Program-made: the position numbers and the translations under genes
Notes under the pieces: model-generated
What the model saw: the letters and a program-made list of their open reading frames with translations, nothing else
What the model was told of the DNA's origin: nothing
Databases searched by the model: none
Shown: piece after piece, positions 52,216 to 58,033 of the stretch
How the letters are laid out: the number at the start of each line of letters is the position of its first letter
Position numbering within the stretch: position 1 is the stretch's first letter
Assembly: GCF_024158035.1 (NCBI RefSeq)
Contig: NZ_JAMZEK010000002.1
Span: forward strand, 496,001 to 560,000
DNA from: Dyella lutea
GTDB lineage: Bacteria > Pseudomonadota > Gammaproteobacteria > Xanthomonadales > Rhodanobacteraceae
Reading direction: 5' to 3'
DNA: 64,000 nucleotides

Positions 52216-52629
52216 ATGGCGCACGCTTGCGCCATGGCTGCACTTGCCCACCCGCTCCCGACCGCGCGCGCATGGCGTGGCGCCCTGATGCCCGCGCTGG
52301 CCGTCCTGGCGGTGCTGGCCGGGCTCTGGCTGGCGTCAGCCGCTCCGACCGATGCGCCAACGCGCGACGATGTGCAGGTGAACCGGCTGGTCCATTGGCA
52401 GGACGCCCAGCGCGACTGGTTGCTGGTGGCGGATCGCTCGTCGCACGAGCTGGTGGTCTACGACGCTCGCACCGGCTCGCCGCTGCAGCGGCTGGGCGCC
52501 GACGATGGTCTGGGCGAGGTCGATTCGATCGCGCGTGCCGGCGATCGTCTGCTGGTGCAGGGGGGCGAGGGACCGGCAAAAGTGCTGATTCTTCCGGATC
52601 TGCACGCCGCGGGCCTGGCCGCGCGTTGA
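52216..52629 (+). CDS. Membrane-anchored protein of unknown function
   Basis: 137 residues with a hydrophobic N-terminal segment (MPALAVLAVLAGLWLAS) and a periplasmic C-terminal part with strand-turn repeats (DWLLVADRSSHELVVYDART, DSIARAGDRLLVQGGEG) like one or two beta-propeller blades. 22 bp after DUF423. The start could also be 52234 or 52288. Not assigned to a family. Confidence 0.55.
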   Translation: MAHACAMAALAHPLPTARAWRGALMPALAVLAVLAGLWLASAAPTDAPTRDDVQVNRLVHWQDAQRDWLLVADRSSHELVVYDARTGSPLQRLGADDGLGEVDSIARAGDRLLVQGGEGPAKVLILPDLHAAGLAAR

Positions 52630-52651
52630 TGCCGGGCAAGCGCCGGGCGCT

Positions 52652-53992
52652 TCAGCGCACGGCGTGCCGGGCGAGCATCCACGCCGCGATGTCGCGGATC
52701 ACCCCCGGCTCGACGTGTCCGGCTTTGCCGTAATCGGCCGGCGAGGGTGGCGTGCCAGCCGGCATGAACAAGTGGCTCAGCCCAGGATAGCCGCGCAGGC
52801 TCACGCGGTGGCTGCCGCGGAACGCCTGCTGCCACCGTGCGAAATCCGGCCCGACCTGGTAGTCGGCCAGTCCCTGCAGGACCAGCAGTGGCACGTGGAG
52901 GGCGCGGGCCGTGTCGATCGCATCGTAGTCGCGCAGGCTGAGCCAGTAGGCGGCCGGAGCATGGAAGTACAGACCCTTGGGAGGATGCCCGGAGTCGGCC
53001 TTGGCCATTGCGTCGCGTGCGGCTTCCGCCGCGGGGATCTGCTTGCCGGCCGCTGCGTAGGCGCCGCCGAGGCTTTCGATGTAGCGCATCTGGTGGATCA
53101 CCAGTTCCAGGTTCATGCGCTCGGGAGCAGCCAGCAGCACCGCGCCGGCGAGGTGGCCGTCCCGCCGCGCAATACGCGGTGCCATGAGCGCCCCCAGACT
53201 GTGGCCCACCACGAAGATGCGCGAGGGATCGACACGCGGCAGCGTGCGCAGCTGGTGCAGTGCGGCCAGCGCATCGTCGGTCACTTCCTGGTCGATGGTG
53301 ATCGGCTGGCCGGCCAGTTGCGGCCCGTAGGCATGGGTGCGCTTGTCGTAGCGGAGCGTGGCGATGCCGGCTTCGGCCAGGCCGAGCGCGATGTCGCGCA
53401 GCGGCTTGTTCGGGCCGATCGTCTCGTCCATGTCGTTCGGACCGGAGCCGGCCACCAGCACGGCGGCCGGGAACGGTCCCTCGCCCGCCGGAAGGGTGAG
53501 CACGCCCGGCAGCTTGCCGGGCGGCGAGGGCACGTCCACTGCCACCTCGCGGATGCCGTGCGACGGGGCGGCGGCGGGCGCCGCATCGGCTTCGGCGGGT
53601 AGCGGCGCGAAGAACAGGCCACCGATGCTGCCGTCTGCCTGGCAGGCGACCCGCATCATCAGCGCGCCCTGCGCGAAATGCAGCGGAGTCTGCACTACCG
53701 GCATGCCCCCGGCCTGGGTCACGCTCGGCGATCCGCCCGACACGAACCCGCCGGCCTTGGCCGGTAGCATCGTGCCCCATACTTCGGCCAGCTTCGAAGC
53801 GGGCAGGGCGGCGGACATGCGCGCGTCGAAATGGCGGGTGGCATCGGCATAGCGGCCATCGCGCAGTGCCTCGAGCACGGCGGCGCTCCGGGTGCGGCAC
53901 AGTGTGGCCGGGTCATCGACCCTGGCGTGGGCAGGGGCTCCCGCCAACGTGGCAATCATCAGCAGGCAAGCCTGCATTACTCGGTTCTGCAC
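52652..53992 (-). CDS. Secreted DUF3887 plus alpha/beta hydrolase (S9/S33-type) protein
   Basis: 446 residues. The GTG start is chosen because GGGAG stands 7 nt upstream and a signal peptide follows (LLMIATLAGAPAHA). An N-terminal DUF3887 domain (about 20-140; ALRDGRYADATRHFDARMSA) precedes a hydrolase domain with VLVAGSGPNDMDETIGPN, nucleophile in FVVGHSLGALMAP, Asp in LVLQGLADYQVG and His in PGLSHLFMP. Last gene of the SPFH - small peptide - Arc-like - hydrolase operon, 10 bp after the Arc gene. Substrate unknown; autolysin-resistance or esterase-like roles are known in relatives. Confidence 0.85.
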   Translation of the reverse strand: MQNRVMQACLLMIATLAGAPAHARVDDPATLCRTRSAAVLEALRDGRYADATRHFDARMSAALPASKLAEVWGTMLPAKAGGFVSGGSPSVTQAGGMPVVQTPLHFAQGALMMRVACQADGSIGGLFFAPLPAEADAAPAAAPSHGIREVAVDVPSPPGKLPGVLTLPAGEGPFPAAVLVAGSGPNDMDETIGPNKPLRDIALGLAEAGIATLRYDKRTHAYGPQLAGQPITIDQEVTDDALAALHQLRTLPRVDPSRIFVVGHSLGALMAPRIARRDGHLAGAVLLAAPERMNLELVIHQMRYIESLGGAYAAAGKQIPAAEAARDAMAKADSGHPPKGLYFHAPAAYWLSLRDYDAIDTARALHVPLLVLQGLADYQVGPDFARWQQAFRGSHRVSLRGYPGLSHLFMPAGTPPSPADYGKAGHVEPGVIRDIAAWMLARHAVR

Positions 53993-54002
53993 AGGAATCT
54001 CC

Positions 54003-54188
54003 CTATTCGTCGTCTTCCACCGGGTCGGGCCTGGCCGGCTTGAGCCGGCCGGCCTTGCGCAAGGCATCACGCAGCAGATACTCGATCTGCGCGTTGACGC
54101 TGCGCAGCTCGTCCTCGGACCAGCGCTGCACCGCTTCGAGCACGGCCGCGCTTATCCTCAGGGGATAGGCTTTTTTTTCCGCTGCCAT
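54003..54188 (-). CDS. Arc-family ribbon-helix-helix DNA-binding protein
   Basis: 61 residues. The beta-strand [16 protein letters not shown] is followed by two helices ([20 protein letters not shown]), the Arc/MetJ fold, plus an acidic tail. Such proteins bind operators as paired dimers through the strand. GAAGG lies upstream of the ATG, 6 bp after the 23-residue peptide gene. The best-placed candidate regulator for the GATATC pair in the promoter of this operon. Confidence 0.9.
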
Positions 54189-54194
54189 GCGCCT

Positions 54195-54266
54195 TCAGCG
54201 GGCGCGATGGCGCCGCGAAGCCGCCGCAGCGACGAACAGGACGATGAAGATGGCGATGGCGTACAT
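54195..54266 (-). CDS. 23-residue predicted single-pass membrane peptide
   Basis: MYAIAIFIVLFVAAAA then SRRHRAR: one hydrophobic helix of about 16 residues with a strongly basic end. ACGGAG stands 7 nt before the ATG, an excellent ribosome-binding site. It lies 15 bp after the SPFH stop and 6 bp before the Arc-like gene, on the same strand. Small size, tight spacing and a good RBS argue that it is translated; no homologue is recognised. Candidate partner of the SPFH protein. Confidence 0.65.
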   Translation of the reverse strand: MYAIAIFIVLFVAAAASRRHRAR

Positions 54267-54281
54267 GGTTGGCTCCGTCGA

Positions 54282-55151
54282 TTAGTTGTAGAGGCTGCCG
54301 GCGTTCACCACCGGCTGGGTCGCGCGATCGCCGCACAGCACCACCAAGAGGTTGCTGACCATGGCGGCCTTGCGCTCTTCGTCCAGCTCGACCACGCCCT
54401 GTTCGCGCAGCTTGTCCAAAGCCATCGCGACCATTCCCACGGCGCCCTCGACGATGCGCTCGCGCGCCGCCACGATGGCGTTGGCCTGCTGGCGCTGCAG
54501 CATCGCCTGGGCGATTTCCTGGGCGTAGGCCAGATGGCTGATGCGTGCCTCGATCACCTGCACGCCGGCCTTCTCCAGCCGCGCCTGGATCTCGTCGCGC
54601 AGGTGGTTGTTGATCACCTCGCCATGGCTGCGCAGCGAGGGTTTCTTGTCGTCGTGCGCGTCGTACGGGTAGTTCTGCGCCATCTGGCGCAGCGCCGACT
54701 CGCTCTGGATGTGCACGAAGTTCTCGTAGTCGTCCACGCAGAACACCGCCTCGGCCGTGTCCAGCACCTGCCACACCACTACCGCGGCGATCTCGATCGG
54801 GTTGCCATCGCTGTCGTTGACCTTCAGCTTGCCGCTCTCGAAGTTGCGCACGCGCAGCGAGACGCGGCGGCGGCTGTAGAACGGGTTGGTCCAGCGCAGG
54901 CCCTCGTCGCGCACGGTGCCGGCGTACTTGCCGAACAGCTGCAGCACCTGGCCCTCGTTCGGCGCGACCTGGAAGAAACCCTTCACCAGGAGGCCGTCCA
55001 GCACGAGCAGGCCGACGCCCACGAACAGCGGCGTCCCGGGGGCGCCGCCATCCTTCAGGCCGATCAGCTGGCTGATGCCGAAGCCGGCCAGTACCAGGCA
55101 CGCCACCACGAACGGAATGCCTGCTACGGAAAATCCCTGACGCTCGTTCAT
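54282..55151 (-). CDS. SPFH/Band 7 membrane protein
   Basis: 289 residues. Two N-terminal helices (about 8-28 and 42-60) precede an SPFH domain ([40 protein letters not shown]) and a helical region ([20 protein letters not shown]). SPFH proteins form oligomers at membrane microdomains and influence protease or lipid organisation. GGGAG precedes the ATG by 9 nt. First gene of the operon whose promoter contains the paired GATATC sites. Confidence 0.93.
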
Positions 55152-55179
55152 GACACTTGTCTCCCTCTGATTTAGGGGG

Positions 55180-55208
55180 ATTTGATATCAAAAAGATATC
55201 TATCGCAA
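55180..55208 (-). promoter_or_regulatory. Promoter of the SPFH operon with paired GATATC operator
   Basis: On the minus strand: -35 TTGCGA (55203-55208), 17-nt spacer, -10 TCAAAT (55180-55185). Two GATATC palindromes at 55184-55189 and 55195-55200 lie between and over them, centre to centre 11 bp. The spacing equals one helical turn, as for paired Arc dimers. Confidence 0.6.
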
Positions 55209-55211
55209 GTG

Positions 55212-56729
55212 CTAGCCGCGGCCCGTGGGCGTACCCGTCGTCGGTGGTGGGGCGGTCGGGGGCGACACCGGCGGATTGAACTCGTTGCTTGGGCGCACGC
55301 TTTCGATCTTCAGTTGCCCGAACAACTGGGTGGCACTGAAGTACCTCGACGGGTCGCCATCGCCGGTGGTGAGCGCGATGTGGGTCGAGTCGAACTGGCG
55401 CAGCGCAGCGTCGTAGCTCTCCCAGCGACCGTCCACCCAGGATTGCACCCACGCGTGCGGAACGAATACCCGCAAGGTACCCGCGTAGCGGTCGGCGTAG
55501 ACCATGCCGGTCACCACCCGGGTCGGAATGCCCTGCGCGCGCGCGAGTGCGGCGAGCAGCACGGCGAATTCCGTGCAGTCGCCCCGGCGGTTCTTCAGCA
55601 CCTCCAGCGCCGAGGCATAGCCCACGTCCAACCCGTGCTCGGTCACGTAGCCACTGACGAACATGCGCAGCCGGCGCATCTTGTCGCGCGGGTCTTGCAC
55701 ATGCCCGACCACTTTGGCCGCGAGGTCGGCAATCGCCGGTGCATCGGACTGCACCCAGGGATTGGCGGCGGTGTCCGCCGGTACCGGGCCAGCCTCCTTG
55801 CCAGCCTGCGCGCGATGGACGTCCAGGAACACCTCGCGGGCGTCGATCGGGCGGACGTCCTGTTCGTCGGTCTGGATGAGCAGTCTGGTGGCTGCCTTGC
55901 CCAGCCTGATCCGGTAGGTCAGCGGCACGGCGCGCAGGTTCACCGTGAGCGGTCGCGGCGACTCCACCATCGCCGTGCGGAACATGTCCACGCGCTGCAC
56001 CGGCGCCAGCGCGCATGCCTTGTCGCAGGCAAGCATGTCCAGTCGCTGGCCGAGCAGTTGCAGCTCGCCCTTCTGCGCGATGCCCTGGTCATCCAGCCAG
56101 AGGTCGACGACCTGGTCTCCATTCGGCAGGCGCAACCGCTGGCGCTGGTGGCTCAGCGTGCGCGAGCCGTCGGGCAGGTTCACGGTCTCCGGACCGATCA
56201 CCTGCATCTCCACCTGCATGATCTGCTGGCTGACCGGGTCGAACTGGCGCAGCTGGTAGGTGGTGCCTTTTTCTCCCTCGGCCGCCTCCATCGCACGGCG
56301 CTGCCCGTCGAACATCAGCGTGCCGGGCGGCAGCGTGACCTTGCCCACGTGGTGCTGTCCACCGACGCTCGTGGTGACCTCGAACGTGCCTGGACCCAGG
56401 CGTTCGGCCGCGACCGTGTTGTCGACCGAGGACAGTGCGCTGGTCGCGGAAAACCCCAGCGGCTCGCCGTCGATGCTCTCCGTGGTGCCGATCACGCTCT
56501 GCAGCCGCAGCGGCTTGCCGGCGCGAAGCAGCTCGATCGACAAAGTCTGCGTGGTGGTGATCCGTGCGCCGTCGAAGTCCCGGTCCACGCGCAGCGAGCC
56601 GATCTTGCGGCCGTCGATCAGCACAGTCATCCAGGTGGTCTGGTGCGGTGGACGCGTGTCGGCCGCGGAGTGGGCCAGGGACAGGCCGGCCAGGCCGATG
56701 TACAGCAGCATGACTGCAGTCGGGCGCAT
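55212..56729 (-). CDS. Secreted transglutaminase-like cysteine protease superfamily protein
   Basis: 505 residues. Signal peptide MRPTAVMLLYIGLAGLSLAHS, a beta-rich N-terminal half, then the transglutaminase core with Cys-His-Asp triad: LKNRRGDCTEFAVLLAALAR, VFVPHAWVQSWVDGRW and ESYDAAL. A Pro-rich C-terminal tail ends the protein. GGAG lies 7 nt before the ATG. It precedes the SPFH operon by 60 bp that contain a separate promoter, so it is probably its own unit. Protease or amidase substrate unknown. Confidence 0.9.
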   Translation of the reverse strand: MRPTAVMLLYIGLAGLSLAHSAADTRPPHQTTWMTVLIDGRKIGSLRVDRDFDGARITTTQTLSIELLRAGKPLRLQSVIGTTESIDGEPLGFSATSALSSVDNTVAAERLGPGTFEVTTSVGGQHHVGKVTLPPGTLMFDGQRRAMEAAEGEKGTTYQLRQFDPVSQQIMQVEMQVIGPETVNLPDGSRTLSHQRQRLRLPNGDQVVDLWLDDQGIAQKGELQLLGQRLDMLACDKACALAPVQRVDMFRTAMVESPRPLTVNLRAVPLTYRIRLGKAATRLLIQTDEQDVRPIDAREVFLDVHRAQAGKEAGPVPADTAANPWVQSDAPAIADLAAKVVGHVQDPRDKMRRLRMFVSGYVTEHGLDVGYASALEVLKNRRGDCTEFAVLLAALARAQGIPTRVVTGMVYADRYAGTLRVFVPHAWVQSWVDGRWESYDAALRQFDSTHIALTTGDGDPSRYFSATQLFGQLKIESVRPSNEFNPPVSPPTAPPPTTGTPTGRG

Positions 56730-56806
56730 GGATCGCTCCTGGGCCGAACGGTACGGCCAGTGGAGCGTGTCGTGCCGGATCCGTCAATGCGCGGTGCAGC
56801 GGGCAT

Positions 56807-56812
56807 TAGAAT
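56807..56812 (+). promoter_or_regulatory. Candidate -10 box of purT
   Basis: TAGAAT, 31-36 nt before the purT ATG; the expected -35 position holds only a weak TCAATG. Confidence 0.35.
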
Positions 56813-56842
56813 GCGGGGCCGCCCCTGCCTGGAGATCGCCCC

Positions 56843-58033
56843 ATGAAGCCGTTCGGTACACCTCTTTCCCGCCGCGCGCTGCGCGTGCTCCTGCTCGGTT
56901 CCGGTGAGCTGGGCAAGGAGGTGGCGATCGAACTGCAGCGTTTCGCGGTGGAGGTGATCGCGGTGGACCGCTACGCCGATGCGCCGGCGATGCAGGTGGC
57001 GCATCGCAGCCACGTGATCGACATGCTCGATGGTGCGGCCCTGCGTGCGGTGATCGAGGCCGAGCAGCCGGACCTGGTGGTGCCGGAGATCGAGGCGATC
57101 CACACGCCGACCCTGGTGGAACTGGAGCAGGGCGGGCTGAAGGTGATACCGACCGCGCGCGCGGCGTGGCTGACGATGGATCGCGAGGGCATCCGCCGGC
57201 TGGCCGCCGAAGAGCTGCAGCTGCCGACCTCGCCCTACCGTTTCTGCGACGACGAGGCGCAGTATCGCGCCGCCGCCGAGGCGCTGGGCTTTCCGTTCGT
57301 GGTCAAGCCGGTGATGAGCTCGTCCGGCAAGGGCCAGAGCGTGGTGCGCGACGCCCCGCAGCTGCAGGTCGCCTGGGACTATGCCCAGTCCGGCGGTCGC
57401 GCCGGCAAGGGTCGGGTGATCGTCGAGGGCTTCGTCGATTTCGACTACGAGATCACCCTGCTGACCGTGCGCCACCGCGACGGCACCAGTTTCTGCGCGC
57501 CGATCGGCCACCGCCAGGAAGACGGCGACTACCGCGAGTCCTGGCAGCCGCAGCCGATGAGCGACGCGGCACTGGCCGAGGCGCAGCGTCAGGCCGCGGC
57601 GATCACCGCCGCGCTGGGCGGTTGGGGCGTGTTCGGCGTGGAGTTCTTCGTCAAGGGCGACGCGGTGATCTTCTCCGAGGTCAGCCCGCGTCCGCACGAC
57701 ACCGGTCTGGTCACGCTGATCTCGCAGGATCTGTCCGAGTTCGCCCTGCATGCGCGCGCCATCCTCGGTCTGCCGGTGCCGGCGATTCGCCAGCTCGGTC
57801 CGTCCGCGTCCTGCGCGAAGCTGGTGGAGGGCGAAGGCGTGGCACCGCAATACTTCGGCGTGGCCGAGGCGCTGGCCGAGCCGGACACGCAACTGCGCCT
57901 GTTCGGCAAGCCGGCGGTGAAGGGCCGCCGGCGCATGGCGGTGACGCTGGCCTGCGACAAGAGCATCGAGGCGGCCAAGGCCAAGGCGATCCGTGCGGCC
58001 GCGGCGCTCAAGGTGGAGTTGCTGCAGGACTGA
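56843..58033 (+). CDS. purT: Formate-dependent phosphoribosylglycinamide formyltransferase
   Basis: ATP-grasp enzyme making formyl-GAR from GAR, formate and ATP in purine synthesis, an alternative to the folate-dependent PurN. 396 residues, full length. [18 protein letters not shown] at the N-terminus, [17 protein letters not shown] in the ATP-grasp, [16 protein letters not shown] and [10 protein letters not shown] with metal-binding Glu. Divergent from the transglutaminase-like gene. Confidence 0.97.

Follow-up and report, generated by a model that had tools for sequence, protein, structure and literature searches.

Paired GATATC sites as the probable operator of an SPFH-Arc operon kept in many bacterial phyla

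What are the two GATATC palindromes ahead of an SPFH gene of Dyella lutea for, and which protein reads them? In the window (the whole stretch of 64,000 nucleotides that was analysed) they occupy 55184-55189 and 55195-55200, 11 bp apart both start to start and centre to centre, just as the sequence-only reading had described, and that reading had proposed that they serve as the operator for an Arc-family protein encoded in the same operon. On the comparative evidence below, we consider it probable, at roughly 0.8, that the two sites serve the SPFH-Arc operon as its operator and are bound by the operon's own Arc-type autorepressor. The features involved are these:

54003..54188, minus strand: Arc-like ribbon-helix-helix protein of 61 aa, the proposed autorepressor (Pfam Arc above cutoff; family profile matching P22 Arc chains)
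54195..54266, minus strand: putative hydrophobic micro-ORF of 23 aa, MYAIAIFIVLFVAAAASRRHRAR, between SPFH and Arc (predicted)
54282..55151, minus strand: SPFH/Band 7 membrane protein of 289 aa (Pfam Band_7, E 2e-28)
55180..55185, minus strand: putative -10, TCAAAT, 17 bp from the -35 (weak match)
55184..55189, no strand assigned: SPFH-proximal GATATC, candidate half-operator overlapping the putative -10 (from sequence; conserved in SPFH-Arc loci)
55195..55200, no strand assigned: SPFH-distal GATATC, candidate half-operator between the putative -35 and -10 (from sequence; conserved in SPFH-Arc loci)
55203..55208, minus strand: putative -35, TTGCGA (TTG here or one base further upstream in 43/63 aligned loci)

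The identities of the two proteins were borne out by a Pfam scan, which recovered both the SPFH gene and the 61-residue ribbon-helix-helix protein of the Arc family. For the latter, Pfam Arc was the sole family above its own cutoff, by a narrow pass (21.2 bits against 20.4), and the scores for ParD_like (22.0 against 23) and RHH_5 (21.2 against 26) fell just under theirs. The NCBIfam scan of the SPFH protein returned HflK matches only, all below cutoff. No toxin family turned up in the Pfam and NCBIfam scans, which covered window proteins other than the 23-aa ORF, and the partner of the Arc-like protein is the SPFH/Band 7 protein. The profile of the Arc-like family matched the P22 Arc chains (E 6.5e-5), and the alignment of the Arc-like protein with P22 Arc ran without gaps over 43 residues. 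In P22 Arc, whose DNA complex is entry 1par, the strand residues that contact bases are Gln9, Asn11 and Arg13; the same positions in the window's protein hold Ala7, Pro9 and Arg11. K6, L10 and R11 are invariant in 24 diverse aligned Arc-like sequences and lie in or beside the expected DNA-contacting strand, with R11 aligned to the base-contacting strand arginine of P22 Arc. An AlphaFold model of the Arc-like monomer alone (mean pLDDT 78.8) showed a single long helix, with no strand, and was uninformative. On the opposite DNA strand, the codons that specify the expected DNA-contacting strand (54150-54170) also resemble a terminator, a stem with T residues after it, which is probably a coding coincidence. 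The notion, formed by eye, that residue 9 of the Arc strand (Pro or Leu) dictates the second half-site was abandoned, as proteins of the Leu type also come with perfect pairs.

Arc is the second or the third gene of the operon, depending on whether the 23-aa ORF is real. Short hydrophobic ORFs also lie between SPFH and Arc in three genomes of the same genus and in a few others, and a longer membrane protein stands there in some relatives (30/165 loci by a simple hydrophobicity screen). Arc-like proteins with 46-51% identity to the window's are encoded in three unannotated human faecal phage records (H21-H23). Whole-genome searches returned Arc matches with in-frame stops in three genomes (G054, G230 and G240).

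The sites had been placed between and over the best -35/-10 match of the SPFH gene, and this placement held, though the promoter match is weak. Both GATATC lie inside or overlap TTGCGA-17 bp-TCAAAT, with the operon on the minus strand, and a scan of 52500-56900 with the sigma-70 consensus reported no promoter. Among 63 aligned loci, made up of the window's relatives and the nearest named records, TCAAAT or TCTAAT stands at the putative -10 position in 23, and a TTG stands 8 or 9 bases ahead of the first site in 43, so that the candidate operator usually fills the -35/-10 spacer in those relatives. In Actinobacteria the sites can sit 70-400 bp upstream of the SPFH match, and this -35/-10 geometry is thus not universal.

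The most direct check of the proposed operator was whether both sites and their 11-bp spacing are kept where SPFH and Arc occur together, and the outcome was strongly positive. We compared 110 SPFH loci, of which 30 came from the window's genome and its relatives and 80, spanning many phyla, were the best of a larger list of named records. In 68 of them the region ahead of SPFH holds a perfect pair and in 25 more a pair with one mismatch (93/110 with at most one mismatch), and the linker between the sites is A/T-rich. When gaps from 0 to 30 were tested over about 250 bp upstream, exact pairs occurred at a gap of 5 only; with one mismatch allowed, gap 5 accounted for 93/110 loci and the runner-up, gap 16, for 10, and gap 16 is one extra 11-bp step. 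As controls, first-order Markov copies of the upstream regions (174 loci, 20 copies each) gave a pair with at most one mismatch in 0.06%, and within the first 450 bp inside the SPFH match the best pair in any of the 174 loci had three mismatches. The same phase recurs in additional half-sites: among 142 loci with Arc present and a pair of at most two mismatches, 11 have an extra half-site (at most one mismatch) at +22 and three have one at -11, both positions being in 11-bp phase, and each of the out-of-phase offsets tested showed one in at most 2 of the 142. One locus (L070) has one GATATC and no pair, and in a genome with two SPFH-Arc operons the pair is perfect at L226 and has one mismatch at L082. 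With variants included, the arrangement extends to Acidobacteriota, Actinomycetota, Deinococcota, Bacillota and Bacteroidota. The Bacteroidota operator (L284:1290-1306) has AATATC at both half-sites with the 11-bp spacing kept, as if the two had changed together.

Removal of four duplicates left 174 distinct loci, in 165 of which Arc lies downstream of SPFH on the same strand, at a distance of at most 100 bp in 139 and of about 1.1 kb in one. GATATC was found within 450 bp upstream at 154/165 loci with Arc as against 0/9 without it (Fisher p 5e-10, a value that overstates independence since the loci are related). The nine Arc-less loci comprise five SPFH relatives at 50-67% identity and four paralogs at 34%; one of these paralogs has 281 bp upstream only, and the Arc-less locus L128 has a marginal match to the Arc profile (E 0.012) on the opposite strand. 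At 11 of the 165 loci Arc is present and an exact GATATC is absent within 450 bp, and nine of these 11 are Actinobacterial and carry variants such as GCTATCACTTTGCTAGA.

The two genes are present or missing together in closer relatives as well. Searches of 60 relatives, with E below 1e-100 for the SPFH ortholog and below 1e-6 for Arc, located both genes in 49 genomes, with one Arc match per genome, and neither gene in the other 11. The exact pair stands at SPFH in 39 of the 49. Seven of the other ten (G007, G025, G032, G039, G041, G050 and G055) have one mismatch there, and of the remaining three, G042 and G052 have four mismatches and a single GATATC each, while the third, G054, has an operator with two mismatches and no exact GATATC besides the in-frame stop in its Arc match. 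Across the 60 relatives and the diverse genomes, no Arc gene was found apart from SPFH except for a fragment (G228:C78) at a contig end, where SPFH would fall off the contig. A class-wide sample of 143 genomes contained Arc in 2 and SPFH in 3, and SPFH-Arc is thus patchy among Gammaproteobacteria.

Plasmids and Actinobacteria provided further sets of loci. For the plasmids, SPFH matched 23 plasmid records, of which 20 were listed, and ten loci were taken from these. Five of the seven that have Arc contain a pair in phase and with no more than two mismatches: two from Deinococcus (two mismatches each) and one each from Qipengyuania (one), Acetoanaerobium (none) and Parabacteroides (two, with AATATC at both half-sites). 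The poor fits are Rhizobium, whose two GATATC are 25 bp apart and thus out of phase, and Bosea, where there is just one GATATC. No GATATC was found at the three Arc-less plasmid loci (Deinococcus radiophilus, D. proteolyticus and Pseudomonas sp. Leaf58), and the Deinococcus plasmids accordingly contrast with one another, two having both Arc and the pair and two having no Arc and no such pair. In a sample of the class of actinobacterium G237, SPFH was found in 44 of 148 genomes, and 41 among the 47 matches listed have Arc. Inspected by eye, all 41 show a version of GTGATATCACTTt next to a GATA- or GCTA-type half-site; some of these sites are loose, that of L235 most so, and six are found only beyond 330 bp. 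An earlier impression that six Actinobacterial Arc loci have no site was rejected, since their sites were found past the 330-bp limit. The six Arc-less loci of this class have no GATATC within 700 bp (for L276, within its 281 bp).

Where a genome has the operon, the pair is almost confined to it. A lone GATATC is ordinary in the 64-kb window (6 observed, 4.35 expected), and the exact GATATC-N5-GATATC occurs a single time in the whole 4.4-Mb genome. Of 30 diverse whole genomes carrying SPFH, 10 contain a pair with an A/T-only linker, once per genome, and it lies about 1 kb from the mapped Arc gene in nine and upstream of SPFH in the tenth (L081); in the remaining 20 the sites show mismatches or the linkers include G or C. 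The 60 relatives contain eight exact pairs away from the operon, and six of these were viewed in context: four fall within mechanical ORFs of at least 240 codons, and the other two (G046 and G059) fall within no ORF of at least 90 codons. In relative G046 (L231:570-652), a second identical pair lies 65 bp ahead of a gene for a Yip1-domain membrane protein, which the same Arc might also control. The 11 of the 60 relatives in which the operon is missing gave no A/T-only-linker pair. The class-wide sample contains the exact pair in 20 of its 143 genomes, including 18 of the 141 without Arc, as against 7/143 for a reversed control pattern. In 16 of these 18 the linkers all contain G or C, and these pairs are taken as chance; two (G193 and G110) have A/T-only linkers. 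In G193 (L135:364-1000), which gave no SPFH or Arc matches, two copies of GATATC-N5-GATATC separated by 76 bp precede an ORF of 114 aa. This ORF has no Pfam match, but it begins with MKRVQIPLRL, a sequence similar to a ribbon-helix-helix strand.

Because the pair and its spacing are kept in many phyla alongside Arc, they are very probably the switch through which Arc controls its own operon. The feedback loop put forward in the sequence-only reading can thus now be strongly inferred; Arc as the binder, repression as the outcome and the geometry of the dimers are likewise inferred. Two Arc-like dimers would sit side by side on the same face of the DNA, one per GATATC and 11 bp (about one helical turn) apart, with the two-stranded sheet of each lodged in the major groove; the A/T-rich linker of 5 bp may ease their packing. 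Once bound, the dimers would occlude the spacer between -35 and -10 and keep RNA polymerase out, and the operon would thereby repress itself.

Arc might instead bind these sites and activate the operon, or both activate and repress it, which we hold to be unlikely. The ribbon-helix-helix protein AmrZ does both (PMC3325190), and the Actinobacterial sites are often far upstream of the SPFH match; in the relatives, however, the sites usually fill the -35/-10 spacer and extend into the -10, where a bound protein should obstruct polymerase. A slightly smaller chance attaches to the sites binding another regulator, encoded elsewhere, with the Arc-like protein having some other target or partner. Exact pairs do occur in operon-free genomes as well, and the second pair of G046 before its Yip1-domain gene would fit such a regulator, but genomes that have the operon carry the pair almost only there, the Arc-less SPFH loci showed no GATATC (0/9, and 0/3 on plasmids), the 11 operon-free relatives among the 60 have no A/T-only-linker pair, and the 11-bp spacing suits adjacent ribbon-helix-helix dimers. 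A GntR/YtrA-type regulator known from Xanthomonas was considered and set aside, as nothing in one literature listing linked it to the operon and it is unnecessary given the evidence for Arc. It is very improbable that GATATC is kept merely as a promoter or structural DNA element of an A/T-rich -10 region, with no protein operator: the proximal site does overlap the putative -10, next to an A/T-rich linker, yet two exact hexamers at one fixed gap exceed what a promoter needs, the gap is fixed whereas the distance to the start codon varies, and SPFH genes without Arc do not have the site.

Binding by the operon's own Arc-like protein would have a precedent in phage P22, where the half-operators of Arc are about 11 bp apart and lie between the -10 and -35 of Pant. 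The two proteins are homologous and the half-sites are adjacent in both systems. The half-site here is a perfect GATATC palindrome, unlike that of P22 Arc, and the Arc-like gene adjoins SPFH in bacterial genomes, whereas P22 Arc is encoded in the immunity region of a phage. AmrZ of Pseudomonas aeruginosa is a ribbon-helix-helix autoregulator closest to Arc and Mnt, whose sheet enters the major groove with a sheet arginine contacting guanine; it shares with the SPFH-Arc system a linker rich in A/T (an A-tract in AmrZ) and a hydrophobic middle contact residue, but it acts on many genes through GGC half-sites, as opposed to essentially one operon, GATATC half-sites and an SPFH partner (PMC3325190). 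Cooperative binding of neighbouring dimers is described for RelB (PMC2812701). Like RelB and other type II antitoxins, the Arc-like protein is a small ribbon-helix-helix protein encoded in the operon that it is proposed to control; the partner of such antitoxins is a toxin, whereas here it is a membrane SPFH protein. In Qipengyuania the gene after SPFH is annotated as a HicB family antitoxin. Autoregulation by ribbon-helix-helix proteins is already known; what appears to be new is the SPFH-Arc pairing with its operator. Searches of open-licence PubMed Central papers listed no description of this pairing or of a GATATC-pair operator, and the whole word 'Arc' is absent from the main text of a survey, dated 2026, of the SPFH genes of Pseudomonas aeruginosa (PMC13086221).

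More speculatively, SPFH-Arc could be a membrane-coupled feedback switch used over many phyla, in which SPFH, or the small membrane proteins that some loci encode between the two genes, bind or release Arc according to the state of the membrane, as a toxin modulates its antitoxin, and synthesis of the scaffold would then track membrane need; we regard this as possible but doubtful at present. The joint retention of a dedicated regulator and its operator across many phyla gives a direct experimental handle on SPFH, and the paired GATATC is a DNA signature for this SPFH subfamily. The results also suggest that neighbours of SPFH annotated as 'hypothetical protein' or 'HicB family antitoxin' are its regulator, and finding what releases the Arc-like protein would reveal what the SPFH protein responds to.
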